From Membranihabitans marinus (GTDB taxonomy: Bacteria; Bacteroidota; Bacteroidia; Chitinophagales; Saprospiraceae): 41,781 nt of DNA. The stretch lies in NCBI RefSeq assembly GCF_021729155.1, contig NZ_JAJQYA010000021.1, positions 1-41,781 of the forward strand. Direction: 5' to 3'. Made by a program: the position numbers and the translations under genes. The first letter of the stretch is position 1, and every line of letters begins with the position of its first letter. The notes under the pieces were generated by a model that ran no database searches, was not told the origin of the DNA, and worked only from the letters and a program-made list of their open reading frames with translations. This document shows, piece by piece, positions 649-26,638 of the stretch.

Positions 649-1482
649 TTAATTACTCACTTTCTCCGTCAATTCATTGACCAATACCGGCCAATCCGTT
701 TGAATAATATTGGATTTAGTCAATAGCAATTTCTCAAATGAACCATACTTTTTCTTTGCTAAATCCCTATCTACATCCCCCAAAGCATTGATCCATACAT
801 GACAGTTTCGATCATGTAAATAATCTGCCAATTCTGGACTGGCAAAAGAAGGATCTACATGGACAGCCCAAGGCTTGTATCTCTCATACGCATCCTTGGC
901 CATCTTGTCGTCGTAAGCTCGAGGCATAATTTTCCATTCAGGATGTAAGGCATAGACTTTGTCTAACACTTCCCAATCACTGTCAAAAAAGAAAACACTA
1001 TTCCCGGTTTTCGTCTCCTCAATCACTTTAATAATTTTCTCTATTTGCTCCGTCTTAATATCGAGATCAAACAAGACTTTATTTTTCCCAAATGTCAATG
1101 CCTCTGCCAACGTCGGCACAGTATGCTCTGTTTCCTGACCTTTGTGCAACAATCTCATGGCCTTTAGTTGAGCCAAGGTAAAAGAAGACAATTCCCCTTT
1201 GGAATTCGTAGTGCGATCTACTTTGCTATCGTGCATCAATACCGGAATACCATCGGCGCTAATCCGAATATCTATTTCCACTATATCAATCCCATTCACA
1301 ATGGCTTCGTCGATACATGCAATTGAATTCTCAGGTACATGGACGTGATAACCTCTGTGCGCAGCCACCAAGATTTCATCTTGAGCGAAGTCGTTATAAG
1401 CCAATTTAGGTGTTGAACAACCTAAAACAAATGCCGCAATTAGACCTAAGAACAGGCCATTCACTAATCTAAATGATCTCAT
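649..1482 (-). CDS. Glycerophosphodiester phosphodiesterase family lipoprotein
   Basis: The 277-residue protein begins with a lipoprotein signal peptide ending in VLGC (Cys22), so it is probably membrane-anchored and periplasmic or surface exposed. The GDPD signature follows: AHRG at 41-44, PEN at 50-52, metal ligands E69 and D71, and the conserved H84-D85. The family hydrolyses glycerophosphodiesters to glycerol-3-phosphate and an alcohol; relatives act on lipid headgroups or on glycerol-phosphate polymers such as teichoic acids. The length is normal for a single-domain member. It is the last gene of a tightly spaced operon, 2 bp after the preceding phosphatase gene, which places it in a phosphoester-releasing gene set. 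Start ATG at 1482 is chosen because it gives a complete lipobox leader. The exact substrate cannot be read from the sequence. Confidence 0.88.
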   Translation of the reverse strand: MRSFRLVNGLFLGLIAAFVLGCSTPKLAYNDFAQDEILVAAHRGYHVHVPENSIACIDEAIVNGIDIVEIDIRISADGIPVLMHDSKVDRTTNSKGELSSFTLAQLKAMRLLHKGQETEHTVPTLAEALTFGKNKVLFDLDIKTEQIEKIIKVIEETKTGNSVFFFDSDWEVLDKVYALHPEWKIMPRAYDDKMAKDAYERYKPWAVHVDPSFASPELADYLHDRNCHVWINALGDVDRDLAKKKYGSFEKLLLTKSNIIQTDWPVLVNELTEKVSN

Positions 1483-1484
1483 AA

Positions 1485-3392
1485 TTATTTTTTATAGTAA
1501 AATTTCAAATCGGACACCGGATGTCTTTCCCCGTTCGGCCCCTTATAATCCCATCTGATATACTGGTAATATCGATGGGTTTGATATTCCAACTCAAAAG
1601 GATGCAAGCCTTTTTCGAGATAGACTTCCGTAGTCACATCCACTTCGCGATTATACTCCTCCATCTTTAATTCATCGTGAAGGTAAAAGCGGAATATATG
1701 GTATCCGTGCCCATAGAATCTATAATATCCCGATTGGGGAATGTCCATATATCCTTGATAAGATACTCCCCAATCTTTGCCTTTATTGGGCAGTTCTTCA
1801 AAATCCAACCCCCTCACTACTCCTTCTTTGTCCAGCTTTAACTGAGTGGAAATATGTTTTTTCTCATCTTGCATTTTTCCGGTGTAATAATCATATCTTA
1901 ATCCGGCTTCGAAAGCATTGGTTTTTTTCTCTGCTTTCAGATAATTTACTTTTTCAAAGCTTAAATCAGCCATGGGACTCTGTCCGTTATCATTGATGGC
2001 AATGGCTTTTAATTGGGTGGTTTTATTTAAAATAATCTTACCGTTGACTCTTTTCCCATTCTGAGCACTGGGTATTGAACCATCGGTAGTATAATAAATA
2101 TTATCGGCGGGATTTACCGTATTCAATTGTACTTGCAAGGTATCCGTAAAAATCCTCGTTTCGCGAATCGGACGAGGTGTTACTGGAGGTAATTGAGCAA
2201 ATGGGGTCTTATCTCTGCTTTTGTCTAAAGTAAACTGATCAAATAACAAACCATTTTCATCGATGGCTTGGTATTGAAGGGTCTCGTCATTGACGGCGAC
2301 ATAGGCATAGTGAAAGGTGGTTCGAACCTTATTGGTAAACCATGATCGCGTAGGAGAAGCTTCTTCTAATCGTCCACCTGAACCTCCTACATTGATATAG
2401 TGAATGCCATTTTTCACATCCACCTTGTTGTCCAACAGTGGCCATGTTCTTTCATACATATGAATATGACCATAAAACACAATATCCACTCCATATTTTT
2501 CATACAGAGGAACCAACATTTTCAATTCGTCATCACCTTGGGTGGATTTTTCATAGTTGGTATCGCCAAAATCATTTTCCTCAGTAGAATACGGCGGGTG
2601 ATGGTGTACAATGAATTTCCACTTAGCAGTAGAACGAGCCAATGCATGCTCCAGCCAATGGTACATCACCGTACCAGGCTCCTGATATTGATCGGTATCA
2701 ATCATGAAAAATTCTGCATTTCCATAGGTAAATTGGTAAAAATGCTCAGGTTCAGGATTTTTAAAATACTCATAATAATAAGCCGCATCGTGTTCGTGAT
2801 TACCCAAAATGGTAAACATCGGGATTTGTTTCATAAATCCATGCGAAGGGGCAAAAAAGTCGTGCACCCACTCTTCCTTTCGATAGCCCAAACCAACCAA
2901 GTCCCCTCCGTGAACGGCAAAATCTGGTCGATCTCTCAATGCTTGCTTCGTCACTTTACCCCATATATCCGGATTGCTTTGCGAATCACTAAATACGGTA
3001 AAAGCATAAGGAGAATCCTTTTTGACCGCAGTTTTAAAAGGCAACACCCCAGTACGAATGGTGTCTCCAAATTCAGTAATCGAAGTCACTCGATAAAAAT
3101 AATTAGTCTCCACTTCCAAATTAGGCAAAGTCACTTCGTGCAACAATGTAAAATCCTTGTTTTCTAGACGTCGATCCAATACAGCCGCATCCACATTATA
3201 CCTAGCAGCTCCAAACTCTACCAAGGACTGGCTCGGCGAATTGGTCTCCCACATCACTGTTATCTCAGTTTGAGTGGCGTACTGGAGGTAGGGTTTTATT
3301 AAAAATCCAACTTCACTATCAGATAATTTCTGACCATGAGAAAAAAAAGGAAAAACAAGGAGAAACAGTAGAATCAGCTTTTGGAATTTCAT
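1485..3392 (-). CDS. Secreted purple-acid-phosphatase-like metallophosphoesterase with PA14-like tail
   Basis: The protein has 635 residues. A signal peptide (about 1-20) is followed by a fibronectin-like N-terminal domain typical of purple acid phosphatases (about 30-120). The calcineurin-like catalytic core carries its metal motifs in order: D136 (DSQ), D164 (GGD), N198-H199 (GNHE), the HHH at 263-265 and GHIH at 308-311. After the core there is a chitobiase C-terminal-like segment (YYTTDGSIP, about 432-441) and a PA14-like beta module (about 497-632) with an RFYGHGYHIF pattern. The last two domains usually bind carbohydrate, so the phosphatase is probably aimed at a glycan. It shares family with the next gene upstream (3443-4690) but is about 220 residues longer because of this tail. 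The gene lies inside the minus-strand operon. Confidence 0.88.
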   Translation of the reverse strand: MKFQKLILLFLLVFPFFSHGQKLSDSEVGFLIKPYLQYATQTEITVMWETNSPSQSLVEFGAARYNVDAAVLDRRLENKDFTLLHEVTLPNLEVETNYFYRVTSITEFGDTIRTGVLPFKTAVKKDSPYAFTVFSDSQSNPDIWGKVTKQALRDRPDFAVHGGDLVGLGYRKEEWVHDFFAPSHGFMKQIPMFTILGNHEHDAAYYYEYFKNPEPEHFYQFTYGNAEFFMIDTDQYQEPGTVMYHWLEHALARSTAKWKFIVHHHPPYSTEENDFGDTNYEKSTQGDDELKMLVPLYEKYGVDIVFYGHIHMYERTWPLLDNKVDVKNGIHYINVGGSGGRLEEASPTRSWFTNKVRTTFHYAYVAVNDETLQYQAIDENGLLFDQFTLDKSRDKTPFAQLPPVTPRPIRETRIFTDTLQVQLNTVNPADNIYYTTDGSIPSAQNGKRVNGKIILNKTTQLKAIAINDNGQSPMADLSFEKVNYLKAEKKTNAFEAGLRYDYYTGKMQDEKKHISTQLKLDKEGVVRGLDFEELPNKGKDWGVSYQGYMDIPQSGYYRFYGHGYHIFRFYLHDELKMEEYNREVDVTTEVYLEKGLHPFELEYQTHRYYQYIRWDYKGPNGERHPVSDLKFYYKK

Positions 3393-3442
3393 TCTATATT
3401 AATATAAAAGTGTTATCATTTAAAAATACCTAGTGCAATATT

Positions 3443-4690
3443 CTATTTCTCTATTAAAATATTACCCTCTGATGATTTCTGTAAGTCGAACGCATCGTAC
3501 AACTTTCCATCAGCTGTATAACTTCGGTATTGTAATACATCATTATCTGTGGTCAATACTTGATAGAGTTGAAGATTACTTCCCCCTTTCTGCATCCAAT
3601 CTAAGTCCCCAACATCATACATTTTGGGACCACTTACAGAGACCACATACATCGTACCTTCATTACCTGGCCCCTTCTCATCGAGCATTCCTCTACCATA
3701 ACCGTGATCGTGGCCTTGTAAAACCAAATCCACATTGTATTTATCCAATATAGGCTTGAAAGCCTTTCTCAATTTGGGATTATCACGATTGGGTTTGGTA
3801 CTATAAAATGGATAATGCAAAGTAAGGATGGTCCATGGCTGTTTGGTTTCCTCTAACACTGCTTCCAACCATTCCACCTGTGCCAGTCTCAGTTCTGGAT
3901 CTTCATCGATTTGTTCACCGTCCAAGGAGATCACTCTTACCGAAGGGTAATCGATATAATAGCAAGCACCATATAAAGCCTCCTCACCTTCAGGCCCATT
4001 TTCAGGCAAGGTAAAGTGAGTTCGCCATAATGGAGAGAGAATAACATTGGTATATTCATGATTACCTGGCGTCATAATCGATGGGACGGTCCGATGGATA
4101 AACCCACCGGCTTTGTACCAATCACCCCATTCTACATCATTGTACCCCTTATTCACCAAATCTCCGGCATACAATAAGAACTTTGCATGAGGTACGGTGG
4201 CATAAGCTTGTCTAAGCACCCTCGACCATTGACTGTGTAAATCATTTTGGGGATCACCCAAATAAATGAAGGTAAAACTTGAATCGGGATGATCAACAGC
4301 CAGATCAAATTGAATCCATTCACTCCATCCATCCTCGGGGTTTCCCACTCGATACATATATTTTATCCCCGGAGTCAAGCCGTCAATTTTAACTCGAAAA
4401 TTTTTAGTGATTAAGGTTACTCCGTTATACTCTACAGTATCAATACGCATATCGGCTTCTTTACTTTCAAAAATTGAAAGATCGACAACGGGATTTGGGA
4501 TGGCCGGTCCATATTGAATGACTCCCTCATTCACTGCCATAGGAACCCGCCATGTTACGGAAACACCTGTATGGCCTTCTTCCAAAGGATTGAGCATAAT
4601 ACGTGATGGACTTTGATCGCTCTGGCCATAAGCCTGAGTTCCATTCAATCCACAAAATAAAATAGTAATTAAGAAAAAATATAAACGCAT
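3443..4690 (-). CDS. Secreted purple-acid-phosphatase-like metallophosphoesterase
   Basis: The 415-residue protein has a signal peptide (about 1-22), a fibronectin-like purple acid phosphatase N-terminal domain (about 30-130) and a calcineurin-like core. All expected metal-binding motifs are visible: GDPQ at 145-148, AGDLVN with D177, GNHEY at 209-213, H292 in TLHYP and GHDH at 326-329. The enzyme should release phosphate from an exported phosphomonoester or phosphodiester. It is a shorter paralogue of the adjacent 1485-3392 product and lacks the chitobiase-like and PA14-like modules. It begins 5 bp after the membrane-protein gene stop, so co-transcription is very likely. Confidence 0.88.
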   Translation of the reverse strand: MRLYFFLITILFCGLNGTQAYGQSDQSPSRIMLNPLEEGHTGVSVTWRVPMAVNEGVIQYGPAIPNPVVDLSIFESKEADMRIDTVEYNGVTLITKNFRVKIDGLTPGIKYMYRVGNPEDGWSEWIQFDLAVDHPDSSFTFIYLGDPQNDLHSQWSRVLRQAYATVPHAKFLLYAGDLVNKGYNDVEWGDWYKAGGFIHRTVPSIMTPGNHEYTNVILSPLWRTHFTLPENGPEGEEALYGACYYIDYPSVRVISLDGEQIDEDPELRLAQVEWLEAVLEETKQPWTILTLHYPFYSTKPNRDNPKLRKAFKPILDKYNVDLVLQGHDHGYGRGMLDEKGPGNEGTMYVVSVSGPKMYDVGDLDWMQKGGSNLQLYQVLTTDNDVLQYRSYTADGKLYDAFDLQKSSEGNILIEK

Positions 4691-4695
4691 AATAA

Positions 4696-6006
4696 TTATT
4701 CTGTATGTTCCACCGCATTTCCAAATCTCTTTCTCAAACCAGGTACCTCATCATGGCTATTGATGGAAATTACGGCTAAAATAAAAAGTGTAATGACAAT
4801 CCCAGCTAAAAACCGCTTTAATATAATATTAAGCTGTGCTTCCTCAACCATTTTATTAAATACCTCTTTGGGTCTTGCCGCATATAATAGAAATAAGACT
4901 GCAATCAAATTGGGGATTGCCAAATCGTCAGAAGTAAATTTATAGGCGTAAAGAGTGCCTGACGATATCGTCCTCAAGAAAAAATACCACAACCAAAATG
5001 CCGCAAATGCCCAATAGGCCGAAAGATAACTCACTTTATCAGTCGTCGTCTTTCTAAACTGTAGTCCGATGACTACTAAGGCAATAAGACATAATACTGC
5101 GACCTGAATCCACTGCGACTGTACATAAGACAGTACATCTGTCATAGACAATCGCTCTGCCATTTCTGCCATCTTTTTCCAGTGAAAAGTATTGACTATT
5201 ACCAAAAAAGGTATAAACAAAAAGACCAATACCCCTGACCATTGATGAGCCATTCGCGAGGCCAATGGCATTTCTGGCCATGACCGGCTATACACTGCAT
5301 ATGCCATACCCAATCCACCGCAGAATCCAATGGAATATTCCATAACATTCCACCAATTAAAAGAGATTCCACTTACATGGCCCATGGTTTGAATAAAATT
5401 CCCAAAGGCAAATCCAAATCCAGCCCCAGCCATACCGTATAGAGCTACAAATAAAGCATTGGTATAACCATTGCGTCTCATATACCAAGCCAATGCCACA
5501 GCAGCACCAAGACAGGCTGCCCATAGTTCTGATCTTGGCGGTGTCATCAACAATTCAAATTGATATATTAACGCCCCCCAAGATATAATAGCACCGGCCA
5601 CCATTTGGGTAATTAACTCCGCCCAATTAGGCTTTTTATCCTTTGAAGTTTCCAAAATAAGGCCGGTAAATCCTCCACCTAAAAATCCAAACAATCCTCC
5701 AATGACGAGGAGGCCATATAATCCAAAACTCACATTGAGCAAGTCTATCCCTCGGCCATATCCAATGACTCTGCCATAACTAATCATGCCCGTCATTCCC
5801 CAACCAATGGCTCCGATGGCCATGATGACTGGCCAATTTCTAATCCAATCCTTACGACCAGATGCAAGGACTAAACTCAAAACACCAATGGCTCCAGCCC
5901 AAGCTGCACCGTATTCGTGACCAAATCGTCCTCTGATTGCCCATGCAGTGCCCAAAGTCATCATCACGATCAATATCGCCGTCCATTTGCCTTTCGATGT
6001 TTTCAA
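4696..6006 (-). CDS. Polytopic membrane protein of unknown function
   Basis: The 436-residue protein is strongly hydrophobic, with roughly ten to twelve possible membrane helices and a Gly-rich N-terminal half containing segments such as IRGRFGHEYG and ISYGRVIGYGRG. I do not recognise a named family. The frame opens with TTG at 6006, one base after the TAA of the upstream gene (TAA-A-TTG); no in-frame ATG lies upstream, and the next ATG codons (residues 15-16) would cut into the first helix. The near-overlap with both neighbours (gaps of 1 and 5 bp) shows it belongs to the operon. A role in moving or sensing products of the surrounding hydrolases is possible, but this is inference from position only. 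Confidence 0.75.
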   Translation of the reverse strand: MKTSKGKWTAILIVMMTLGTAWAIRGRFGHEYGAAWAGAIGVLSLVLASGRKDWIRNWPVIMAIGAIGWGMTGMISYGRVIGYGRGIDLLNVSFGLYGLLVIGGLFGFLGGGFTGLILETSKDKKPNWAELITQMVAGAIISWGALIYQFELLMTPPRSELWAACLGAAVALAWYMRRNGYTNALFVALYGMAGAGFGFAFGNFIQTMGHVSGISFNWWNVMEYSIGFCGGLGMAYAVYSRSWPEMPLASRMAHQWSGVLVFLFIPFLVIVNTFHWKKMAEMAERLSMTDVLSYVQSQWIQVAVLCLIALVVIGLQFRKTTTDKVSYLSAYWAFAAFWLWYFFLRTISSGTLYAYKFTSDDLAIPNLIAVLFLLYAARPKEVFNKMVEEAQLNIILKRFLAGIVITLFILAVISINSHDEVPGLRKRFGNAVEHTE

Positions 6007-6007
6007 T

Positions 6008-7108
6008 TTAATTAGATTTTGAAGCTTCTATAATATCATCTACAGATCCATGCCAAAAAGCCACTTTTTCACGCTGCCAGGTATATACTGCCGCTACATT
6101 GTTTCCCCATGCGACGATGGAAGGATAAGAAAATTCATCATCGGGAACACCAGTCTCAATATTCCATTTATGTGGCCATGTTTTTCCATTGTCTTCAGAA
6201 ACCGCCATTGTCAATGGAGCTCTATCGCCCCAGTTTTTGTCATCGGGATTGTACAACAACACCAATCGTCCATCTTCTACTTTCACCAAATCGATACCAC
6301 TATTGGGATTAGGCAAATCCGTTTTATAAATCGGCGTCCAAGTAGCGCCATAATCTTTAGAGTCTGCACGACCTATTACACCATCACCAGTACGAACCAA
6401 CATATGTACTTGCCCAGGTGAAGATTCCCATAAAGTAGGCTGAATTGATCCTTTCCATTTGAATATTTCTCTATCCATTTCAATGTATGGTGTCATGGTC
6501 CAAGTTTCACCTTCGTCCTTGCTAATATCGACAAAAGAATCCCATTGACCTTCCTCATGTGAGGCAGGAGCCAACCAATCGCCATTTGACAAAACAATAA
6601 TTTTATTTTTTACAGGACCTCGCCCTCCGCGATCACCAGGTACCAATTCCTTCGCTTCCGACCAAGTTTTACCATGATCTTTGCTCACAGTATACCAAGT
6701 CTCCCAAGTTGGAATTTCCTTACCCACTTTAAAATACAAAATAATACTTCCATCGGGTTTGGTAAACAATACAGGATTCCAATGGGGATCTTCTCTAATC
6801 TTCATTACCTCCAAGGGATCAGACCACTGTCCGGGCTCTCCGATGGAAATCCAAATTCCCACATCGTCATTCTTTTCCTCCGTTCCTCCAAACCAAGAAA
6901 CAATATATTGACCATTATCCATACGAGCAAGGGTAGAAGCATGACACTGCGCAAAAGACTTATTTTGTTCGAAAACAAAATCTTTTTCTGGTCCAACCAC
7001 AACTTCAGTTACCTCCTCTTCCTCTTTAGATTGTTGACTTTCGGTATTGCTTTGACAGCCAAAGAAGACCAACAATATCATACAATAATACAATAGGTTT
7101 CGCTTCAT
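6008..7108 (-). CDS. BNR-repeat (sialidase-fold) lipoprotein
   Basis: An ATG at 7141 is also in frame, but the ATG at 7108 gives a clean lipoprotein leader ending in FFGC (Cys18), so 7108 is preferred (366 residues). Four Asp-box motifs of the form S-x-D-x-G-x-TW occur at residues 142, 196, 250 and 304, exactly 54 residues apart, matching successive blades of a six-bladed propeller. The FGGTEEKNDD segment near residue 73 resembles the BNR_2 group often labelled exo-sialidase. I do not see the FRIP-type arginine motif of classical sialidases, so true sialidase activity is doubtful; other glycoside-binding or glycosidase roles are possible. The gene sits 40 bp after the deacetylase gene in the same operon. 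Confidence 0.8.
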   Translation of the reverse strand: MKRNLLYYCMILLVFFGCQSNTESQQSKEEEEVTEVVVGPEKDFVFEQNKSFAQCHASTLARMDNGQYIVSWFGGTEEKNDDVGIWISIGEPGQWSDPLEVMKIREDPHWNPVLFTKPDGSIILYFKVGKEIPTWETWYTVSKDHGKTWSEAKELVPGDRGGRGPVKNKIIVLSNGDWLAPASHEEGQWDSFVDISKDEGETWTMTPYIEMDREIFKWKGSIQPTLWESSPGQVHMLVRTGDGVIGRADSKDYGATWTPIYKTDLPNPNSGIDLVKVEDGRLVLLYNPDDKNWGDRAPLTMAVSEDNGKTWPHKWNIETGVPDDEFSYPSIVAWGNNVAAVYTWQREKVAFWHGSVDDIIEASKSN

Positions 7109-7148
7109 AGTTTTTAAATTAGATGGTGTTTCCCTTTTCATAATATAT

Positions 7149-8228
7149 TTATTTTACTTTTTTTCGCCTTTCCATTACGTCACGATAGGTGGTGACAATT
7201 ATACCCTCTGATTCGAGATAAGATCTTAATTTTTCATCCATCATAGCCAACATATCCCCTTGTCTTCGCACTCCAGAAGCTGAGATTTCACCAAAAATTT
7301 CTGATGGATCAGTACAATGCATCAAGACCATGGTCAATCCCGGTTGTAACAATTCAAATGTCGCAATAAATTTATCTGTATAAAATGATTGAATATTCGC
7401 CTCAGTTCTTTCCATGTCCTTTGGAAAATCCCAACCATAACTCATATTATGTAAATCGTCCATCACTGGCAACCCCAAAGACCATACTTGTGCCCCAACC
7501 AATGGTGCTTTGTTTACTACTTCGGGCACTGGTACATCCATACCTTCCTTCCATTTTCCACTTTTAATCAATTCACCCTTGGCGCGCAATCGATATTCCT
7601 CTTTCAAAATGGAATTATGTCCTCCTGGAAACATAATTGGAATCTGGTATTCAGCCCCTATTTTAATATAGCGCTTAAGAAATTCTTCATCGGCAAACAA
7701 TGTTCCCATATGTGAATCGAGGTGAGTGGGCTTGAAGCCCATAGTCAGGGCACGATCTATTTGTGCTCTAATTTCTGCTTCTACTTCATCACCCGAGCTG
7801 TGTTGGATGACTTGCTCTACATTTCGCCACATGGCACCTTCTTCATCTACCAACCCAGGCACTGAGGGCTTGCCCATGAGTGGTCCCCATCGATAGTTTT
7901 TCCATTCCGATGTAAGCGTTAAATGGAGTCCAGCATCCACTGTCGGATTGGCCTTGATATATTTTACAATAGCTGGCACCCAAGGACAGGGCATCATCAC
8001 ACTAAATGAACTGGCCACTCCATGGTCCACAGCATTGATCGTCCCTTCGTTGCTATCCCATGACATTCCCGCATCGTCTACGTGAAGTATAATTACTTTG
8101 GCATCTTTTGGATAGCCCAATTTTTCAGCATAAGTCTCTTGACCTATGGCTATACCCCCCCAGATGGTACATATCAAAAAAGCCAGCATTCGCTGTGGTA
8201 TTATAGAATTGATTACATTGTTTATCAT
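7149..8228 (-). CDS. ChbG/YdjC-family carbohydrate deacetylase, secreted
   Basis: The 359-residue protein carries the YdjC-fold metal motifs: D51-D52 in HVDDAG, H102 in AGLHLTL, and H169/H173 in THLDSH; a further His lies in LMHCTD near the C terminus. The family removes N-acetyl groups from chito-oligosaccharides and related amino sugars. A hydrophobic segment at about 14-30 ending in AIGQ looks like a signal peptide, so unlike cytosolic ChbG this copy is probably exported. ATG at 8228 is the upstream choice; Met14 is an alternative giving a shorter leader. It is 9 bp after the FG-GAP gene. The presence of a membrane acetyltransferase in the same locus hints at acetyl-sugar processing. Confidence 0.85.
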   Translation of the reverse strand: MINNVINSIIPQRMLAFLICTIWGGIAIGQETYAEKLGYPKDAKVIILHVDDAGMSWDSNEGTINAVDHGVASSFSVMMPCPWVPAIVKYIKANPTVDAGLHLTLTSEWKNYRWGPLMGKPSVPGLVDEEGAMWRNVEQVIQHSSGDEVEAEIRAQIDRALTMGFKPTHLDSHMGTLFADEEFLKRYIKIGAEYQIPIMFPGGHNSILKEEYRLRAKGELIKSGKWKEGMDVPVPEVVNKAPLVGAQVWSLGLPVMDDLHNMSYGWDFPKDMERTEANIQSFYTDKFIATFELLQPGLTMVLMHCTDPSEIFGEISASGVRRQGDMLAMMDEKLRSYLESEGIIVTTYRDVMERRKKVK

Positions 8229-8237
8229 CGTATTTAC

Positions 8238-10232: not shown

Positions 10233-10238
10233 AGTCAA

Positions 10239-12104: not shown

Positions 12105-12107
12105 TAT

Positions 12108-13211: not shown

Positions 13212-13222
13212 GATAATGGGGT

Positions 13223-15385: not shown

Positions 15386-15397
15386 AATCTTCTGTTT

Positions 15398-17728
15398 TTA
15401 ATTTTTAATCAACCAAACTTCATTTAACCTAGATTGATACCTCCAGTTTAAATGACTTTCCTCCAATTCCTTCCATGTTATTGTAAGTTTGCCATCGGCC
15501 GTCAATTTTTTGGGAACAGAAATTTCAACAACTTCACCGGTCTTAATTCGCTCCTCTATAAATTTCAACTCTTCACCATCTGCAATGGTCTGGATTTGTC
15601 CTACCCCTGTCATCCTAATAGAATACTGGGCATTGATATCCAATCCACCATATTTCATGGCCTTAGGCCAATTCATATTAATCATCCATGCCAATCGAGC
15701 CTTGCTATAGCCAGATTCCCACCAGTCAAATCCTGGATTTTCACTTAACTCTAACAAAGCATCGTTTTGCGGTGCTGTAATCTTTACGACATGATTGCTT
15801 TTATATATATTCCCTATATCGTCATAAAAACTACCAGGACCGGGGTTCTCCCAGCTACCTATGGTTTTTAATCGCGCTATTTTATCGGCTTCCTTCCATT
15901 CAGCCATTTTCTCAAATTCATCTTCTATCCACCATTTGTTATTCAACGGACGATCAATAAACTCAATCACTCCACTACGCTCTGGATTTCGAGCTTGATA
16001 CAATGGCACACTAGGTTGGTAGCCAATGACTTCAAACAAATCGTCGCCTAAGTGATAAATTTTATTTCGCCATGGATCTTTTTTAAATTTCTTTTTAGAC
16101 TTCTCCAATATGTGATACACAGAATCTATTACGACCTCAGATGACAATGTACCACTCTTCATCATCACCTCATTGGCTTGCCCTTCCAATTTTTCTTCAT
16201 ATATAAATCGCTTGCGTTGAAAGGCATCGTAATAGGCGCGCATCAAGTACATCTTCCATCGCCAAGCTTCCCATACTTCATCCAATTGCCCCCTTTCATT
16301 GATGGCTTCAAACAAGGCCAAAGTTGAATTAATACTTCCATTGTACTTGGCCGCTCCGTCCCAATTCGTCTCCAAGGCCATCAGAGCATCGGCAATATCA
16401 TCGGATTGCTGTGAATCGATAAAGTAATTGGCATAATCTCTGACCAGTTCCAATATATCACTCTCTCTTTCCATGCCCAATCCAGACCAAATCATCTTGT
16501 TTAAGTCGTCGTGCATACCATCGGAATAAGTGATAAATCCATCGGTATAATCAGCGGTGTGTAAGAATATGTTTTGATATCGCAAAGGTTGGGGATTCAC
16601 CGGTTCACGCCCCAAGGTGAAATTAAAGACGGGATCCCACCACCAGTTAGGGTATTGACATCTCACCGTATGGGTAATATCGGGATAGTGTCTCAATTTA
16701 TACTCCGAAGCAATGGCAGCTCTGGTTTCCGACATAGGGGGGCTACTCGGCCCTGCGACCAAACCATCCATCCAAGCCGTATGATCTTCGTCTAAGAAAT
16801 CATATACATATTGAGTCTCTTCGGGCTTGAATCCCTGCATTGACAACCATAATTTGGCATGAGGATGGTACTTTTGAGCAAGATCTGCCATTTTTTTCAT
16901 CATTGGCAATACCAATTCTGGTGGATTGCTGCCAGGGTCTCCTCCAGGTACAAATATGGCATCTAATCTCGGCAATTCTCTATAGAAAGAATCCGCTTTT
17001 TGCAAATAAGCTTCGCTCTTTTCCCCGTCATTCAAGTCAAACTGAATCGGTGCCCACATCCAATAATCGAGATTGTATTTGTTACATATTTTACTAATTT
17101 CAATATTCATATCCCAATTGGACAGGGTAAAATGAATAGGGCTATCTTCGTGAAAAGGAATGATCTCTACAGCATTAGAACCAAATACAATAAGGTCTTT
17201 AATGTATTGTTCATATTCGTCAACCGTCCAAGCATCATAAGAATTGGCGGTATTTCGATATCCCAACTGATGACCTCTGATATCCTTGTATGGCTGTACT
17301 GAAGTCGAATGACCTTTCCATTCCAAGCCTTGGGTAAAATTCACCTTTCTTAAAAAGAAACCTATCCCAAACAAAGTCCCTCTAAAATCCCTACCCTGAA
17401 TATATACTTGACCATCGTGAGACAATACCCGATAACTATCGGCCTTACCAGGCAATGGATATTTGGTCAATAGAGGTTTCATTCCCTTAGGCCAATCTTT
17501 AAAATTTGCATCGACGATTAACAGATCAGCAGCATCAGCTTTGGATACAAGGTTCAAACTATCTACACCGCGAATGAACAATTCTTCCTGTAGAAAATCA
17601 ATACCAGTATTTTTCATTTCATTAAATACCGGAGTGGTTTGATAAATCGACTTTAGAACTGTGGATTGCTGAGCAAAGGTTATATTCACAAAACACAGAA
17701 AGGCAAGAAATAATAAAATTTTTCTCAA
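15398..17728 (-). CDS. Secreted glycoside-hydrolase-like protein with GH20/GH67-type N-terminal domain
   Basis: The 776-residue protein has a signal peptide (about 1-19, ending TFAQ). An N-terminal alpha/beta domain like the one preceding GH20 and GH67 catalytic barrels (about 30-145, including DLLIVDA and GRDFRGTLFGIGFFLR) is followed by a probable TIM barrel starting at IRGHQLGYR and including EIIPFHED, YWMWAPIQFD and FVPGGDPG. A helical region and a beta-rich C-terminal part follow. I cannot assign a CAZy family. It is the only clear glycosidase-type fold in the locus. The frame opens with TTG at 17728; no in-frame ATG lies upstream and the next would remove the signal peptide. It is 30 bp after the PqaA-like gene. 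Confidence 0.75.
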   Translation of the reverse strand: MRKILLFLAFLCFVNITFAQQSTVLKSIYQTTPVFNEMKNTGIDFLQEELFIRGVDSLNLVSKADAADLLIVDANFKDWPKGMKPLLTKYPLPGKADSYRVLSHDGQVYIQGRDFRGTLFGIGFFLRKVNFTQGLEWKGHSTSVQPYKDIRGHQLGYRNTANSYDAWTVDEYEQYIKDLIVFGSNAVEIIPFHEDSPIHFTLSNWDMNIEISKICNKYNLDYWMWAPIQFDLNDGEKSEAYLQKADSFYRELPRLDAIFVPGGDPGSNPPELVLPMMKKMADLAQKYHPHAKLWLSMQGFKPEETQYVYDFLDEDHTAWMDGLVAGPSSPPMSETRAAIASEYKLRHYPDITHTVRCQYPNWWWDPVFNFTLGREPVNPQPLRYQNIFLHTADYTDGFITYSDGMHDDLNKMIWSGLGMERESDILELVRDYANYFIDSQQSDDIADALMALETNWDGAAKYNGSINSTLALFEAINERGQLDEVWEAWRWKMYLMRAYYDAFQRKRFIYEEKLEGQANEVMMKSGTLSSEVVIDSVYHILEKSKKKFKKDPWRNKIYHLGDDLFEVIGYQPSVPLYQARNPERSGVIEFIDRPLNNKWWIEDEFEKMAEWKEADKIARLKTIGSWENPGPGSFYDDIGNIYKSNHVVKITAPQNDALLELSENPGFDWWESGYSKARLAWMINMNWPKAMKYGGLDINAQYSIRMTGVGQIQTIADGEELKFIEERIKTGEVVEISVPKKLTADGKLTITWKELEESHLNWRYQSRLNEVWLIKN

Positions 17729-17758
17729 GATTAGAGGGGTTTTATAAGCTAGAATAAA

Positions 17759-19135
17759 TTATTGTTGTTTCTCCAAATATAAATCATCTTTTCCAATGAC
17801 GTACATTCGACTACTTAAAGAGTATTCTTTTTCTACATCTCCAGAATAAACCAAATTCCAATATGTCGCTGTGAACCCTTCTTTGGGTTTGTCCACATTG
17901 GTCTCAAAGCTATTAGCATTGTTGAGATTTATTTTTTCAACCGCCCATTCTTCATCTCTAAAATCGCGATCGCTGGATGTTGCCGTCCATTTTTCAATAT
18001 AAGCCACTGGCTCGTCTGAAGTCACCGACCAATTAAAACCACTGTCGTGACCTTTGTGTTGGTATTCAATGGTAGGGGTTTCATCTTCAATTACACGATC
18101 GTGAAAAAACTCAGACAGCACTTCAAATGCTTCTTGTCCCCCAGCTAAATCGTGTCCAGCATTAGGCGTATAAAAAATATAATTATCCCCTGGTATTTCG
18201 TCAATATAGTTTTTAACTGCATCTACTGGCCAATAGGCATCATTGGTTCCTATAAGCAACAATTTTGGCTTGTCTAGCTGAGCTCTATAGGAATAGGGAT
18301 CGATCATTTTCACCAGTTCTTGTCCAGATTCTGATGCAATATCTTGAGCGACGCCCAATCTTACATAATCTTGTATCTCTATACTGTAATCACCCCATGA
18401 GGCGACTTGATAATCTACGTTCACTGGCATATTCAATACATCGATCACACCAGGAGCTATAGCCTTTACTCGATCATCGTTGGCTCCAGTCAACCAAGTT
18501 GTCCAACCTCTTTTCGAGAATCCAGTCAAAAGAAACTCATCGATTTGAATTCCTATTTTTTCATTACAATATTCTTGCATAGCATCCATCCCTTTGACCA
18601 CACTTTTGACCATGGGGAATAGTAATGGCCAGGTAAAGTCGCCATCATTTTTATAATTATGTAGGGTAAATGAGATAAGCGCATCCTCGGTCAAGTTGTC
18701 AAAGAGGGGTTGGTTGGGCACTTGTTTAATCACCGCTGTAATGGCTTTGTTATCTGTGGCGATTTTCAACGCGCCTTTTACGTGTTTGTCATCTAAGCTA
18801 GGATGACTTAATTTTTTGTTATTTCCTCCGGTTATTAGCAATAGCGCTTCGGATTCTACGACATCATCGGGCACGATAATGGTCAGGGAATGTTCCCATA
18901 CGATGTCATGCCATTTTTGAGAGGTCAATTTTACTTGATGGATACTGACTCCATTTTCTTTGATTACATTTTCAGCTACCCACTCATAGGTACTGTCTTC
19001 ATGCTGTAAGTAATGCCTTAGAGCGTTGTCGGCGTTGGTGGCTTCTACAGGAGCAGTAGCTGCAGGGTTTTCTTGGCAGGATAATAAGAACCCCAAGCAT
19101 AGAAAGGAAAGACATAAAATAGGTAGTGATTTCAT
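17759..19135 (-). CDS. PqaA-like (PhoPQ-activated pathogenicity-related) alpha/beta-hydrolase lipoprotein
   Basis: The 458-residue protein has a lipoprotein leader ending in LLSC (Cys20). The family features are visible: SQKWHDIVWEH at about 72-82, ITGGNN at 101-106 and GFSKRGWTTWLTG at 205-217. A Ser-Asp-His triad can be proposed as S207, D299 (GTNDAYWP) and H328 (NAGHDL). The PhoPQ_related family is an alpha/beta hydrolase group first known from enterobacterial PhoPQ regulons; its biochemical reaction is not firmly established. In this setting an esterase acting on a decorated glycan is likely. It is the first gene after the susD terminator and so begins the second transcription block. Confidence 0.83.
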   Translation of the reverse strand: MKSLPILCLSFLCLGFLLSCQENPAATAPVEATNADNALRHYLQHEDSTYEWVAENVIKENGVSIHQVKLTSQKWHDIVWEHSLTIIVPDDVVESEALLLITGGNNKKLSHPSLDDKHVKGALKIATDNKAITAVIKQVPNQPLFDNLTEDALISFTLHNYKNDGDFTWPLLFPMVKSVVKGMDAMQEYCNEKIGIQIDEFLLTGFSKRGWTTWLTGANDDRVKAIAPGVIDVLNMPVNVDYQVASWGDYSIEIQDYVRLGVAQDIASESGQELVKMIDPYSYRAQLDKPKLLLIGTNDAYWPVDAVKNYIDEIPGDNYIFYTPNAGHDLAGGQEAFEVLSEFFHDRVIEDETPTIEYQHKGHDSGFNWSVTSDEPVAYIEKWTATSSDRDFRDEEWAVEKINLNNANSFETNVDKPKEGFTATYWNLVYSGDVEKEYSLSSRMYVIGKDDLYLEKQQ

Positions 19136-19155
19136 AATTGTAGTTTTAAGAAAAA

Positions 19156-19180
19156 ATCCGGCTCTTTGACAGAGCCGGAT
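19156..19180 (-). terminator. Intrinsic terminator after susD
   Basis: A perfect 10-bp stem (ATCCGGCTCT / AGAGCCGGAT) with loop TTGAC is followed on the minus strand by a run of six T. It lies 38 bp after the susD stop and 21 bp before the next start codon. It should end most susCD transcripts and let a minority continue into the enzyme genes. Confidence 0.88.
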
Positions 19181-19217
19181 CTTATATAAAATTAATATAA
19201 ATGATTACTTCAAACCA

Positions 19218-20855
19218 TTAGTATGGTTTACCAGTACCGGCAATTAACCAAGTTTTAGACCAAGCACTGTTTTTCTCATTTTGAGAAAAGTTAGTGGTCT
19301 CTAATCTCTCAATTGCTGTACTTGCATTTGATGAATTAAAGTTCAATTCATTACTTCCATAGATATATCGCAATGGCAATACAGAACGAGCGGCAACTGA
19401 ACCTGTTTGAAGATCAGGTAAACCAGTTCTTCTATAGTCAAACCATGCTTCTTGAGCAGCTGTCCAACTAGCGATCCATTTTTGCTCAATAATCTGCTCC
19501 AAACTACCATCATAAGCTACATTGGCTTGAGCTAAATAGTCTGCGGCTGCATCACCAACACCCCACTCTTCCAAAGAAGCAGTCACTGCTTCATTGTAAT
19601 AGCCTTCAGCACCACTCAACCATCCTTTATGTGCGGCTTCTGCCAAAAGGAAATTCACTTCTGTGTATGTCATCAATCGAGCATTCAAAAGATCACCACT
19701 TGCATCTCGATACATTTCATTAAGATAAGATACAAATTTGTTCTCTGAAGTCTGACCTGGAGTTGGATTATAATTAAAACCAGAAGGCAATCCTAAATGA
19801 GTAGGTAAACCAACATAATCTTGATTAGTACTAACCGCAACCAACGACACAGAATCTTGCTCAAAATATCTTATGCCATCAATAATGGTATTGTGTTCAA
19901 TAGTACCTTTTTGTTCTTCTGTGATAAATTGCGTAGGGATTTCCACTTTTTCAAACCAAACCGCAATTCTAGGATCGTTCTTAGATCTCAAAGACTCTAC
20001 TAAAGTAGCTGCGGGTCGAATTCTTCTATAGTTAGATCCATTAGTATCATCAAATCTTGGATCAGCATTGGCAGGCCAAGCGTCACTATCTGATTGCCCT
20101 AAGAATGGCATAAGGGCACTGTCGTCGTTACTTTGAAAAATATCACCACTTTGTGCAACACTTACAAAATCACTTTGTACATCCATTTTATTGGACACTC
20201 TCATCAAATATCTCAACAGCAATGAATTGGCAAATTTTTGCCATTTTACAGGATCTCCGTTGTAATAAACATCTGCACTCGGCAAGATCTCTTTATAAGA
20301 ATCTTTAGGCGAAGACAACAACTGAGCTGCTTCTTTCAAATCGGCAATTACACCTTTGTATATCACTTCTTGTGAATCGTATTCAGGCAACAAATTTTCA
20401 TTACCACCGTCTATACCATTCAAAGCATTAAGATATGGTGCATCTCCCCAAAGGTCAGCAATTTGACCAAATAAGAAGGCTTTCATCACCAAAGATACAC
20501 CTTGATGAAATTTCAAATCTCCTTCTACAGCTTTGTCGTATACCGCTTTATTATTTCTAAGGATGTTGTAATAACCTCCCCAGTCTTGAGGACCCCAGTC
20601 ATAACTATTGTGACTACCAAACCAAGCATCCTTTTGAGTGTGTTGCATAATTCCTGCTCCTGTACCATAGCCCATACTGTTATAGGTTTTGGCCGTTTCA
20701 GTCAACACTGTCGCCAAAATCAAATTGGCATTTGCTTTTTCTATAGCTATTCCATTGGGATTGATATTCAACTCTGTCAAATCTTTACAAGACTGAAGAG
20801 ACAATGTCAATCCTAAGAATAGAACTAATACAAATATATTTTTACTATTTCTCAT
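19218..20855 (-). CDS. SusD-like nutrient-binding lipoprotein (SusD-like_2 type)
   Basis: The 545-residue protein has a lipobox leader ending in LQSC (Cys23) and the N-terminal pattern LTELNINPNG, with GAGIMQHTQK a little later, typical of the SusD-like_2 (RagB-related) group. The C-terminal half has the EAWFDYRRTGLPDL segment common to SusD proteins. It should sit on the cell surface as the lid of the SusC channel and bind the polymer or oligomer to be imported. It lies 11 bp after susC and is followed by a strong terminator. Length is in the normal range. The ligand cannot be deduced from this sequence. Confidence 0.93.
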   Translation of the reverse strand: MRNSKNIFVLVLFLGLTLSLQSCKDLTELNINPNGIAIEKANANLILATVLTETAKTYNSMGYGTGAGIMQHTQKDAWFGSHNSYDWGPQDWGGYYNILRNNKAVYDKAVEGDLKFHQGVSLVMKAFLFGQIADLWGDAPYLNALNGIDGGNENLLPEYDSQEVIYKGVIADLKEAAQLLSSPKDSYKEILPSADVYYNGDPVKWQKFANSLLLRYLMRVSNKMDVQSDFVSVAQSGDIFQSNDDSALMPFLGQSDSDAWPANADPRFDDTNGSNYRRIRPAATLVESLRSKNDPRIAVWFEKVEIPTQFITEEQKGTIEHNTIIDGIRYFEQDSVSLVAVSTNQDYVGLPTHLGLPSGFNYNPTPGQTSENKFVSYLNEMYRDASGDLLNARLMTYTEVNFLLAEAAHKGWLSGAEGYYNEAVTASLEEWGVGDAAADYLAQANVAYDGSLEQIIEQKWIASWTAAQEAWFDYRRTGLPDLQTGSVAARSVLPLRYIYGSNELNFNSSNASTAIERLETTNFSQNEKNSAWSKTWLIAGTGKPY

Positions 20856-20866
20856 TATTATTTTTT

Positions 20867-23800
20867 TTAGAAGTTTGCAGATAATTTGATTCCAATCGGC
20901 AATACAAATGGAGTTACATTATATCTCTCAATCCCTTGCTTAAATGAACCATTCCCTTCTGGCTGGAATGCTCTCTCTGGATCAATACCTACATCAGCTT
21001 TGGTCCACAAAATGATATTTCTACTATATACAGACAATGCAAGATTATCCATTTTCACGTTAGACATCCAAGCTTTTGGAAATTGATAGGTCAATGAAAT
21101 TTCACGCAATTTCACAAAAGAAGCATCAAACATCGCAGCTTTAGTAAAGTCCCAAGGATAGTTGTCCGCTAAAGGAATCATTTTCGTTCCTTCTCCACCT
21201 AAGTTTTCAAAGTAACCCAAGAAATTACCATCAGCATCATATTCCGGAATCACACCAGGGTTAAACACCCCACTTCCCAATGTCAATCCTAAGTCTTCGT
21301 AGAAAAACTCATATCCACCTAATTCAGGAGTTGGTCCACCAACTCTAGCTGTTTGATTAACAATTAACTCATCGGCATTGGCTTTCAAGTAATCTGCAAT
21401 ATTCCCATTAACATCGTTAGGATTAATAATTTCATCCAATTGACGTTGTGTAGCAAAATCAGACTCAGAGTATCTGTATGTTTGAGAAACAAATTGTCCA
21501 CCTTGTCTCCAATCTAAACTTGCAGAAAGGGTGAAATTTTTATATCTAAATGAAGATTGTAGCCCAATAATGAAATCTGGATTGTAGTTACCGATTTTCA
21601 CTAAATCGTTAACCCCACTTTTACTATTCCAAGATCCACCATCGTCTAATATTGGCCAACCGTAGTAAGGTGAACTTTCATCCTCTACTGTTACTAATTT
21701 TCTGTCGTAGATATTTCCTATATCATCACCTACCCAAGTATAAGCTCCTCCTTTGGCATCGGTCCAAAAATTATAAAAATCGATACCGTCAGCTAATTCT
21801 TCAATTCGAGTTCTATTGAAACTGTAATTAAGATCTACATCAAACCCTATATCTTTTGTTGAAATCAATGTTGATCCTATAGACAATTCCAAACCTCTAC
21901 TAGACACCAATCCAGCATTGATCAACTTAGTAGAATAACCAGATGATTGCGGCAAGGATAATGGCAAGATTTGATTTTCATTGTCTGAATTATAATAAGT
22001 GGTGCTAAATCGAATTTTGTCTTGAAAAAGAATCAAATCTCCACCAAACTCAAGTGAAGTAACGATTTCTGGTTTCAAGTCTGGCGTCAACAAAGTACCT
22101 GAAGTAGACAATCGAGAAACATCACCCCATGCACCAGCATTACCCAATGTAGCCAACAATCTATAAGGACCTGTATCATTACCCACTTGTGCCCAACCAG
22201 CTCTTAATTTCACCATATCTACATTATTGCCCATATTAAATATATTGTTCAACAATGCACTTACTGTAGCTGATGGATAAAAATATGATCGATTCGCTTC
22301 AGGCAATGTACTCGACCAATCATTTCTAGCTGATAAATCTACGTAAACCATGTCTTTATAACCAATACTTGCCAATCCATATACACTATTAATGGCTTTT
22401 TGGCTCCAAGAACTTCTATATTCCAAGTTAGACGGTAGAATATTAGATACATTATATAGACCAGGCAAGGTCAAGCTACTACCTTCTTGAGAAGAAGAAG
22501 ACGCTTTTTGATACATTAAGTTACCCCCTGCAGAAGCTGAGAATGAAAAGTCACTCACGTATTTTCTATAGGTCAACAACAATGAAGCATTACTTTCTGA
22601 TCGTGCTATTTTTGAAATACCGTAAGCTCCTTGTTGATTTCTACCATAGCTATAAGGTATAATAGATTCTCTTTCCTCACTCAATCGATCCAAGGCATAG
22701 GTAAAAGTCGCTGTTAAATCATCAGTTAATTTATAATCCAAGCCAATGTTTCCATAAACTCGATCTCTATTGAATGAATTATCCACTTCATAAGCCAAGA
22801 AATAAGGATTGTTGTGATCAGGCACTTGATATTGTTGAATATCTTCTACAGCCCAATAATCTTGAAGAGTAGTGATGTCTATATGAGGTGATACCGCATA
22901 AGCCCATTGCAATGGATTCGTTCCTCTATTACCTGAAGGTACATTGTTAGAGTGTGTTCTCCCCACATTGATATTGGTATTAAAAGACAATCTCTTATTA
23001 ATATCATAATTAGCACTTAAATTCAATGAATTTCTGTACAAATCAGACCCTGGGATAATTCCTTCATTGTTCATATTAGTATATGAGGCTCTAAAAGAAC
23101 TAGTCGCACTACCACCACTAATGGCTATATTATTGGTATTGGTAATACCAGTTTGCAAGAAGTTTTCTACATTATTAGGATAAGATTTCAACAAAGAAGG
23201 AACGGGATTTCCATCAGCATCCAAAGGACTGTTAAACTGGATGGCACTTTGTCCTATATCCAATTGTGGTCCTAATCTAGCTGCACTACCTTCTTCAATA
23301 ACCAATGGTCCACCGGTCAATTGTCCCCATTGTTCTTCAGTAAATGGAGTCACACCTGTTGCAAACAAACTATGATACTTCAAATACTCATATGGTCGAT
23401 CGAAGACCACACTACTATTCAAAGAAACTTTCATCTTTTGATTTTTCTGACCAGTTTTAGTGGTAATCAATACAACTCCATTACCTGCTCTTGAACCGTA
23501 TAAGGCAGATGCACCTGCACCTTTTAAGATAGATACATTTTCAATATCTGAGGCATTTAAATCAGAAATAGCATTCCCATAATCCACGATATTTCTACTC
23601 CCTACCTCTGAAGTATTCCCTGCAAATGAATTTTGGACAGGCACTCCATCAATCACAAACAAAGGTTGATTGTCTCCAGACAATGAAGTTGCTCCACGAA
23701 TGATCATACTTACTGAAGATCCAGCATTTCCTCCTGAACTATTAATAGTTACACCAGGAGCCTTACCAGACAATGCATTCAACACATTCTCCTGTATTAC

Positions 23801-24226
23801 TTCATTCAATGAGCCACCATCGATTTCTTCAACAGCATAACCCAAAGATTTTTTCTCTCGCGAAATACCCAAAGCCGTTACCACTACTTCATCCAAAGTA
23901 GCAGAATTCACTTCCAATTGAATTTGAATGGAAGCTCTACCATTTACAGGCACTTCTTGTGATAAGTATCCTATATAAGACACCAATAAAACAGCATCAG
24001 AGGCCACATCCTTCAATGCAAAATTCCCATCAAAATCGGTTGAAGTACCATTGGCGGTACCCTTTACCAGCACATTCACCCCAATTAGAGGCTCATTGTT
24101 TTCGTCGACCACAGTACCAGTCAATTCGTCTATTGCACCAATATCCGCATAGGATAAATTTGGATTAAGCAACAAACAAAACAACAGGGACAATACGACA
24201 CCCATTTTTTGTACACTTAGTTTCAT
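20867..24226 (-). CDS. SusC/RagA-like TonB-dependent outer-membrane transporter
   Basis: The protein has about 1119 residues. A signal peptide (about 1-28) is followed by a carboxypeptidase-regulatory-like domain with TGTVVDENNEPLIGVNV (about 38-54) and a TonB plug containing LDEVVVTALGI, RGATSL and PLFVIDGVPV, the SusC signature region. The rest is a beta barrel ending in Phe (KLSANF), as expected for outer-membrane proteins. The start is the ATG at 24226; a TTG one codon earlier is less likely. It imports a ligand captured by SusD using TonB energy. It is first in the transcription unit, with a candidate promoter about 210 bp upstream and a divergent AraC gene. Confidence 0.95.
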   Translation of the reverse strand: MKLSVQKMGVVLSLLFCLLLNPNLSYADIGAIDELTGTVVDENNEPLIGVNVLVKGTANGTSTDFDGNFALKDVASDAVLLVSYIGYLSQEVPVNGRASIQIQLEVNSATLDEVVVTALGISREKKSLGYAVEEIDGGSLNEVIQENVLNALSGKAPGVTINSSGGNAGSSVSMIIRGATSLSGDNQPLFVIDGVPVQNSFAGNTSEVGSRNIVDYGNAISDLNASDIENVSILKGAGASALYGSRAGNGVVLITTKTGQKNQKMKVSLNSSVVFDRPYEYLKYHSLFATGVTPFTEEQWGQLTGGPLVIEEGSAARLGPQLDIGQSAIQFNSPLDADGNPVPSLLKSYPNNVENFLQTGITNTNNIAISGGSATSSFRASYTNMNNEGIIPGSDLYRNSLNLSANYDINKRLSFNTNINVGRTHSNNVPSGNRGTNPLQWAYAVSPHIDITTLQDYWAVEDIQQYQVPDHNNPYFLAYEVDNSFNRDRVYGNIGLDYKLTDDLTATFTYALDRLSEERESIIPYSYGRNQQGAYGISKIARSESNASLLLTYRKYVSDFSFSASAGGNLMYQKASSSSQEGSSLTLPGLYNVSNILPSNLEYRSSWSQKAINSVYGLASIGYKDMVYVDLSARNDWSSTLPEANRSYFYPSATVSALLNNIFNMGNNVDMVKLRAGWAQVGNDTGPYRLLATLGNAGAWGDVSRLSTSGTLLTPDLKPEIVTSLEFGGDLILFQDKIRFSTTYYNSDNENQILPLSLPQSSGYSTKLINAGLVSSRGLELSIGSTLISTKDIGFDVDLNYSFNRTRIEELADGIDFYNFWTDAKGGAYTWVGDDIGNIYDRKLVTVEDESSPYYGWPILDDGGSWNSKSGVNDLVKIGNYNPDFIIGLQSSFRYKNFTLSASLDWRQGGQFVSQTYRYSESDFATQRQLDEIINPNDVNGNIADYLKANADELIVNQTARVGGPTPELGGYEFFYEDLGLTLGSGVFNPGVIPEYDADGNFLGYFENLGGEGTKMIPLADNYPWDFTKAAMFDASFVKLREISLTYQFPKAWMSNVKMDNLALSVYSRNIILWTKADVGIDPERAFQPEGNGSFKQGIERYNVTPFVLPIGIKLSANF

Positions 24227-24418
24227 CAATAATTGTTTTTTCGTGTTAGTTAAAAAAAAAGCCCTATATACTATGAAATGCGAAATATCGCAAACTCATA
24301 TCCATAATTTAATGCAATGGTATTGTTAACTTAACATAACCCATTCCTTTATTGGCAAAAAACACCTGACCTAAAAAAAAATCACAGTATCCAAATTTCA
24401 AATACCCATTTTTTTTGA

Positions 24419-26553: not shown

Positions 26554-26580
26554 ATTCCATTTTTATATTCTTAAAAAATC

Positions 26581-26618: not shown

Positions 26619-26638
26619 TAAATATATTCTATTAAAAT

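Follow-up and report, generated by a model that had tools for sequence, protein, structure and literature searches.

A SusC/SusD operon with gathered phosphoesterases in Membranihabitans marinus, a candidate locus for a glycan bearing phosphate and amino sugar

Gene content and layout of the operon

We analysed a 41,781-nt stretch of the genome of Membranihabitans marinus (5.40 Mb in 78 contigs), positions 1-41781 of contig NZ_JAJQYA010000021.1 (C13 here), which we call the window. Fourteen minus-strand genes, running from 24229 down to 649 over a span of 23.6 kb, form a tight and presumably co-transcribed SusC/SusD operon (Table 1), whose order is SusC, SusD, PqaA, P776, P720, an HGSNAT/NagX-like protein, PafA, an FG-GAP protein, YdjC, BNR_2, a polytopic membrane protein, PAP1, PAP2 (PAP, purple acid phosphatase) and GDPD. 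Its susC and susD homologues stand side by side, the arrangement expected of a SusCD-type polysaccharide utilisation locus; the likely ATG start of SusC lies at 24226. The 13 intergenic gaps measure -37, 1, 2, 3, 5, 7, 9, 11, 12, 30, 50, 82 and 216 bp, the 82-bp gap lying between PqaA and SusD, the 216-bp gap between FG-GAP and PafA, and the negative value being the single overlap. Every gene named in an earlier note on this DNA is present on the minus strand between 649 and 24229; that note had missed P720 and the membrane protein, and its description of the gaps as mostly 1-50 bp holds for most of them but not for the two larger gaps or the overlap.

Table 1. Features of the window, with the matches on which each assignment rests.
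Feature	Position	Strand	Evidence
SusC/RagA TonB-linked outer-membrane transporter	20867..24229	-	TIGR04056 636 bits, cut-off 368; Plug, CarbopepD_reg_2
SusD-like lipoprotein (SusD-like_2)	19218..20855	-	PF12771 2.2e-79
PqaA-like (PhoPQ_related), putative lipoprotein	17759..19135	-	PF10142 4.7e-104; lipobox-like motif
P776, putative exo-glycosidase, TIM barrel, GH84/GH20/GH67-like layout (GH, glycoside hydrolase)	15398..17728	-	profile and predicted structure
P720, beta-propeller and C-terminal helical domain, signal-peptide-like start	13223..15385	-	predicted structure
HGSNAT/NagX-like transmembrane acetyltransferase	12108..13259	-	PF07786 (HGSNAT_cat) 6e-10
PafA phosphomonoesterase	10455..12104	-	NF042991 731 bits, cut-off 650; 5tj3 E 6e-179
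FG-GAP repeat protein	8238..10238	-	PF13517 8e-30
YdjC/ChbG-like carbohydrate deacetylase	7149..8228	-	PF04794 7.5e-52; DD and DxH motifs
BNR_2 sialidase-fold protein, four Asp-boxes, putative lipoprotein	6008..7141	-	PF13088 2.4e-72
Polytopic membrane protein	4696..6006	-	no Pfam/NCBIfam match
PAP1, PAP-N and calcineurin-type phosphoesterase	3443..4690	-	PF16656, PF00149; PAP structures; GDPQ, GDLVN, GNHE, GHDH
PAP2, PAP-N and calcineurin-type phosphoesterase	1485..3392	-	CHB_HEX_C; sub-threshold PA14 match
GDPD, putative lipoprotein	649..1482	-	PF03009 2e-28; HRG, ExD, HD motifs
AraC regulator, divergent	24894..25814	+	PF12833 6e-23
Sugar and sugar-acid block	25903..35069	-	3-keto-disaccharide hydrolase, GFO/IDH/MocA, FAH, SSF, DHDPS, galactarate dehydratase families, ALDH

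The phosphoesterases and their gathering in the genome

The PafA protein scores above the equivalog cut-off of its family, its residues 27-548 align full-length with 5tj3, and it retains the TVT, GNDW and KDR regions, which we take to be the catalytic and active-site regions of PafA; on this combination we identify it as PafA. PAP1 and PAP2 both join a Metallophos to a Pur_ac_phosph_N (PAP-N) domain, retain the blocks GD, GNHE and GHxH and carry Gln in the first block. Purple acid phosphatases have a metal-binding Tyr three residues after the second Asp, a place at which PAP1 and PAP2 have Asn or Gly (GDLVN and GDLVG). Among the 32 members of the PAP cluster from relatives (described below), a simple regular expression finds Asn at this place in 19, with 6 members unmatched, and GDAQ as the first block in 20; no Tyr is seen among the blocks listed, which comprise all but one of those matched. 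The two proteins are better called PAP-N calcineurin-type phosphoesterases than purple acid phosphatases, the type to which the earlier note had likened them. The GDPD keeps its family motifs.

PafA is present in a single copy in the whole genome, and that copy lies inside the operon. So do two of the five PAP-N genes that score over the cut-off genome-wide (one more falls under it) and one of the four GDPD genes (five matches). One PafA, two PAP-N and one GDPD gene within 23.6 kb of 5.40 Mb compare with about 0.04 expected in a post hoc calculation, and the gathering exceeds chance. As a control we took 20 other SusD-like_2 places of the same genome, from 43 matches of which some are weak, as 20-kb stretches, several of them overlapping, and searched them at 1e-8 with profiles of the relatives' clusters. 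Nineteen of these stretches gave no PAP, PafA, GDPD or PhoA match, and the remaining one gave a single PAP match (67 bits), which lay on the other strand from SusD. BNR matches occurred in four of the 20 and a propeller match to P720 in one, so that neither the BNR protein nor the P720 propeller is specific to the operon. Thirty SusD loci of relatives (L109-L138), at about 4 kb each too short to serve as a control, gave no match.

P776, P720 and the other enzymes

Neither Pfam nor NCBIfam has a match for P776 (776 aa). A search with its profile gives weak matches to the N-terminal parts of GH84 and GH67 enzymes (E 2e-4 to 1e-3), and the AlphaFold2 model of P776, with a predicted local distance difference test (pLDDT) score of 82.7, matches GH84, GH20, GH138 and GH67 structures with a best E of 2.5e-14, at a query-normalised template-modelling score of 0.32-0.44 and 9-14% identity over the 50 rows listed. 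A PGGDPG motif, just after strand 257-260, which is the fourth barrel strand by our count, is found in 22 of 22 homologues. In a sample of 198 genomes of the phylum, scored with at most 5 candidates per genome, P776 was found in two at E 1e-80, namely the genome studied here and a second one. A P776 paralogue in another genome of the class (L161, G205:C17), found without P720 as anchor, has HGSNAT-like, ROK-like and metallophosphoesterase-like neighbours, the last two named by eye.

P720 likewise has no Pfam or NCBIfam match. Its model (pLDDT 94.3) contains a sensor-type propeller, which is the part covered by the fold matches in the top rows; the whole-model search gave no fold match to the C-terminal half, which was not searched alone. 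This helical half, from about residue 308 to 720, has Asp, His, Trp and Arg residues that are invariant, which suggests that P720 is an enzyme.

Apart from the sialidase-fold BNR_2, no glycoside hydrolase family was found in the operon by Pfam, and its carbohydrate-active candidates are P776, by predicted structure alone, and BNR_2 and YdjC, by family. BNR_2 matches NanC sialidases weakly and in part (E 3e-9). The HGSNAT/NagX-like protein reaches 189 bits on the NagX model against a cut-off of 480, and may work like NagX without being filed as NagX; the YdjC protein, at 69 bits on the ChbG deacetylase equivalog (cut-off 227), is a member of the wider YdjC family. PqaA found no sequence match in the PDB, and the membrane protein no profile match there.

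Conservation among relatives

We compared the operon with the best 80 of 548 confirmed relatives, anchored on P720; some of their stretches stop at contig edges, and their genes are longest open reading frame (ORF) calls grouped at 28% identity into clusters that may split or merge families. By tblastn at 1e-10, matches to SusD were found in 51 of the 80, SusC in 47, PAP1 in 24, PqaA and P776 in 22 each, YdjC and BNR in 18 each, DHDPS in 16, HGSNAT in 11, PafA in 10, the membrane protein and PAP2 in 9 each, SSF in 7, GDPD in 6 and FG-GAP in 3. By ORF clusters, 49 relatives have SusC or SusD and 31 have a phosphoesterase; 25 of the 49, in scattered clades, have both, the types being PAP (23), PafA (7), PhoA (5), GDPD (3) and a second PAP type (3). 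Pfam scans of 86 of the 117 unassigned neighbour proteins of at least 200 aa added three Metallophos, two GDPD and two Sulfatase proteins, which we left out of the phosphoesterase counts; the same scans found ROK-type domains in three and glucosamine-isomerase-type domains in three. Three of the 80 relatives have a GH20 cluster in their same-strand runs, and seven have a GH2 cluster that carries an exo-glucosaminidase Ig domain, each label resting on one scanned member.

These neighbouring genes favour an amino-sugar glycan over a teichoic acid or glycerol-phosphate polymer, the latter being a target proposed in the earlier note. A GDPD stands at the end of the operon and tblastn finds GDPD in six relatives, as such a polymer would lead one to expect; its cluster is present at only three of the 49 SusC/D loci, with two further cases among the scanned neighbours, and Pfam and NCBIfam scans of the operon show no family that would serve the utilisation of glycerol or ribitol. 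We find no specific support for this target and regard it as very improbable.

Gene order is kept most fully in Membranihabitans maritimus (L009), where 12 of the 14 operon genes follow in the same order, SusC-SusD-PqaA-P776-P720-HGSNAT-PafA-FGGAP-YdjC-BNR-membrane-PAP, up to the PAP gene at which the stretch stops. L012 has ten of the window's families, including PAP1 and PAP2, without PafA and FG-GAP. Seven Chitinophaga loci (L016, L023, L032, L033, L056, L070, L076) share the order SusC-SusD-PAP-P776-P720, followed by PafA in all except L016 and L076, and in Proteiniphilum the order is LacI-DHDPS-PKD-SusC-SusD-P720-PqaA-YdjC-PAP-PAP-GH2. In L017 (12140-16230), P720 is followed by a 3-hexulose-6-phosphate-synthase-like protein, two dehydrogenases, IolE/IolO-like and YhcH proteins, and then by DHDPS, a GH20-cluster gene and MocA.

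In a P720 tree built quickly from 79 rows, which carries a long-branch warning, the phosphoesterase label needs 14 changes, 13 of them on starred branches, compared with 24.8 in shuffles; the label is therefore clustered, but has been repeatedly gained or lost. The window's nearest rows are a mix of Saprospiraceae and Balneolaceae, and its SusC is closer to that of Fodinibius (67-68%) than to that of M. maritimus (49%), which suggests transfer. Phosphatases thus recur in this kind of locus without being obligatory; its core is SusCD and P720, with or without P776.

Regulators and flanking genes

The divergent AraC gene is a possible regulator of the operon; homologues occur in the stretches of three of the 80 relatives (L011, L029, L074). 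Among the 49 SusC/D stretches, ECF or FecR clusters are found in 21, LacI in six and AraC in three, and regulators of these kinds are usual for carbon loci. Sites resembling the E. coli Pho box with at most three mismatches number eight in the window, compared with 3.8 expected (3 of 100 shuffles reach eight). Four lie inside the operon, all in coding sequence, and none lies between susC and the AraC gene, though the box of Bacteroidota may differ. A Bacteroidota-type promoter pattern has one match in the window, outside the operon, with 2.5 expected; sigma-70-like sites (74 versus 61.5, sd 7.3, in shuffles) and terminator-like sites (15 versus 12.1, sd 3.5) were also counted.

These observations bear on the possibility that the purpose of the locus is phosphate, SusCD importing organophosphorus compounds from which the enzymes would free phosphate under limitation. 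There is a precedent in Flavobacterium, where PMC8115612 describes SusCD beside phosphomonoesterases and phosphodiesterases induced at low phosphate; GDPD and PafA would suit organophosphorus in general, and the count of Pho-box-like sites is in keeping with it. The regulators of the relatives are, however, of the carbon type, the region upstream of susC is free of such sites, and a glycosidase-fold protein, a deacetylase and an acetyltransferase would be superfluous for scavenging phosphate. In addition, Pfam and NCBIfam scans of the operon give no phosphate-transporter family, although its membrane protein has no assignment, and expression of Flavobacterium pafA is phosphate-insensitive (PMC8812569). 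We consider phosphate scavenging possible but unlikely.

Beyond the AraC gene lies the sugar and sugar-acid block, a possible sugar-acid route judging by its families, whose MocA protein is glycoside 3-dehydrogenase-like (473.7 of 750 bits). Its link to the operon is uncertain. Despite the DHDPS and SSF matches among the relatives, we partly rejected it as a component of the same system: among the 11 relatives' genomes searched (of 80), that of M. maritimus has its GarD and SSF homologues together at 27-31 kb of a contig, away from the locus at 63.7-85.9 kb of its contig. An AraC and an SSF homologue occur together within the locus stretch only in Fodinibius sediminis (L011), with GarD elsewhere. 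At the far end of the window, 40567-41106 and 41228-41773 encode a small membrane-like protein in tandem duplicate, with no Pfam match. At the opposite end, positions 1-650 contain interspersed repeats: 247-293, 442-481 and 173-236 recur on many of the genome's other contigs, and there is a 20-nt perfect inverted repeat (268-287 and 449-468). Bases 1-79 are 99-100% identical to sequence at or close to the ends of two further contigs.

Interpretation

From these observations, we hypothesize that the operon is a SusCD locus that acquires carbon from an anionic glycan bearing phosphate and an amino sugar, a reading to which we assign a probability of about 0.5. SusC/D would import oligosaccharides into the periplasm, where GDPD and the two PAP-N enzymes may open phosphodiesters or remove phosphate and PafA would remove terminal phosphomonoesters regardless of phosphate supply, so that together they would unmask the sugars. 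PqaA and YdjC may take off ester or N-acyl groups, P776 and probably also P720 and BNR_2 would cleave glycosidic bonds, and the NagX-like acetyltransferase could re-acetylate free glucosamine at the inner membrane; the sequence of these steps is our proposal. A sialic acid substrate, prompted by BNR_2, DHDPS and SSF, is not supported: BNR_2 is only weakly and partly NanC-like, and the DHDPS protein of the window is nearest to YagE in the PDB.

Several observations weigh against this hypothesis. No phosphoesterase cluster is found in the stretches of 24 of the 49 SusC/D relatives, though contig ends truncate some of these; among the 24 are F. sediminis and five Chitinophaga loci that lack both PAP and PafA (L024, L028, L031, L034, L035). 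In uninterrupted same-strand runs, phosphoesterases occur in 18 of 42 with SusC/D and in 11 of 38 without, so that the presence of SusC/D does not predict them, and independent tree pairs show no link between the two (median p 0.45), although 9 pairs are not enough for a decision. A Membranihabitans marinus stretch among the relatives (L010) has P720, PafA, FG-GAP, YdjC, BNR and the membrane protein with no SusC/D. In the window's own genome, L162 (G000:C55:42000-61999, outside the control set), a SusC/D neighbourhood in which a PAP-type gene lies beside a P720 paralogue, also contains sulfatase-like and SusC/D-like genes (the sulfatases and SusD named by eye); L095 (G000:C33:5000-24999) has a P776 paralogue between two sulfatase-like genes, again by eye, the second of which is followed by a GDPD gene; and on contig C2 P776 and P720 paralogues form a pair that has neither phosphatase nor SusC/D within the 14 kb examined. 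Such paralogues imply that phosphate need not be the defining decoration. The acetyl-group enzymes, finally, score well under the cut-offs of the characterised families, which leaves acetylation of the target as something we infer.

The relatives without phosphoesterase clusters and the sulfatase-like genes beside the paralogues would fit an ordinary or sulfated glycan as target, with the phosphatases as hitch-hikers or acting on unrelated substrates and the sole PafA co-transcribed by chance; sulfatase-like genes also follow PAP in L012, and PafA is a widespread general enzyme (PMC8812569). Against this stand the occurrence of two PAP-N enzymes, PafA and GDPD together, compared with a single weak match in the 20 control stretches, the recurrence of PAP and PafA at SusC/D loci in separate parts of the tree, and the presence of PhoA or the second PAP type at the loci of other relatives. 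We judge an incidental role for the phosphatases unlikely. For the phosphorylated and amino-sugar-bearing glycan, the synteny that the earlier note had asked for supports membership of the phosphatases in the locus in M. maritimus, Fodinibius roseus and many Chitinophaga, and fails to do so in the relatives without them.

A bolder and more tentative hypothesis, which we consider unlikely, is that SusCD loci for phosphorylated amino-sugar/uronate glycans form a class not yet described, of which this operon is the member with the fullest equipment, with P776 founding a new glycosidase family and P720 a new class of carbohydrate-cleaving enzymes, spread by transfer across Bacteroidota and Balneolota. 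Candidate substrates would then be glycosyl-inositol-phosphate sphingolipid headgroups, glycosylphosphatidylinositol (GPI) glycans and lipopolysaccharide cores. The phosphodiesterases, the glucosamine-type enzymes and a ceramidase-like cluster in the runs of five relatives prompted the idea of a glycosyl-inositol-phosphoryl-ceramide or GPI substrate; the one ceramidase-like member scanned was marginal (34.9 bits, cut-off 32.1), a search of the literature by title listings found no report of a locus degrading such glycans, and we keep the idea within this hypothesis only.

The earlier note had suspected an undescribed type of system, which goes too far and is right only in part. SusCD loci with phosphatases have been published (PMC8115612), and the general idea is known; the novelty lies in the lineage that has P720 and P776. 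A word-matched literature search, missing most subscription journals, found no description of this gene set. Organic phosphorus is often sugar-bound, and its use by Bacteroidota is addressed, among the literature found, only by the Flavobacterium work on phosphate utilisation systems and PafA. A locus that is conserved in species open to culture, and that combines two unnamed core families with the sole PafA of the genome, offers a concrete place to look for phosphoglycan feeding and for new glycosidases.

Comparison with known systems

P776 resembles the GH84, GH20, GH67 and GH138 glycosidases in its layout of a small domain and a TIM barrel, but where those enzymes typically have an Asp-Asp or Asp-Glu pair, it has PGGDPG. 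Like classical polysaccharide utilisation loci, the operon has SusC, SusD, presumably exported enzymes and an adjacent AraC regulator; unlike them, it has phosphoesterases in place of Pfam glycoside hydrolases, BNR_2 excepted.

The closest described systems are the phosphate utilisation systems (Pus; PusCD, PUSI-IV) of Flavobacterium, SusCD loci with phosphatases that are defined by induction at low phosphate and carry phosphodiesterases or PhoA1 (PMC8115612); PMC10405439, citing that paper, already proposes phosphorylated polysaccharides as the target of phosphatases in such loci. The operon shares with them a SusCD-like pair co-localised with phosphomono- and diesterases, a likeness of gene content, and differs in having PafA, PAP-N enzymes, GDPD, P720, P776, PqaA, YdjC, BNR_2 and the NagX-like protein. 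Its PafA matches that of Flavobacterium and Elizabethkingia (5tj3; PMC8812569) at the equivalog level with conserved active-site regions. The Flavobacterium enzyme is described as constitutive and as required for growth on sugar phosphates, whereas the PafA described here sits inside a SusCD operon, as its cluster does in seven of the 49 SusC/D relatives.

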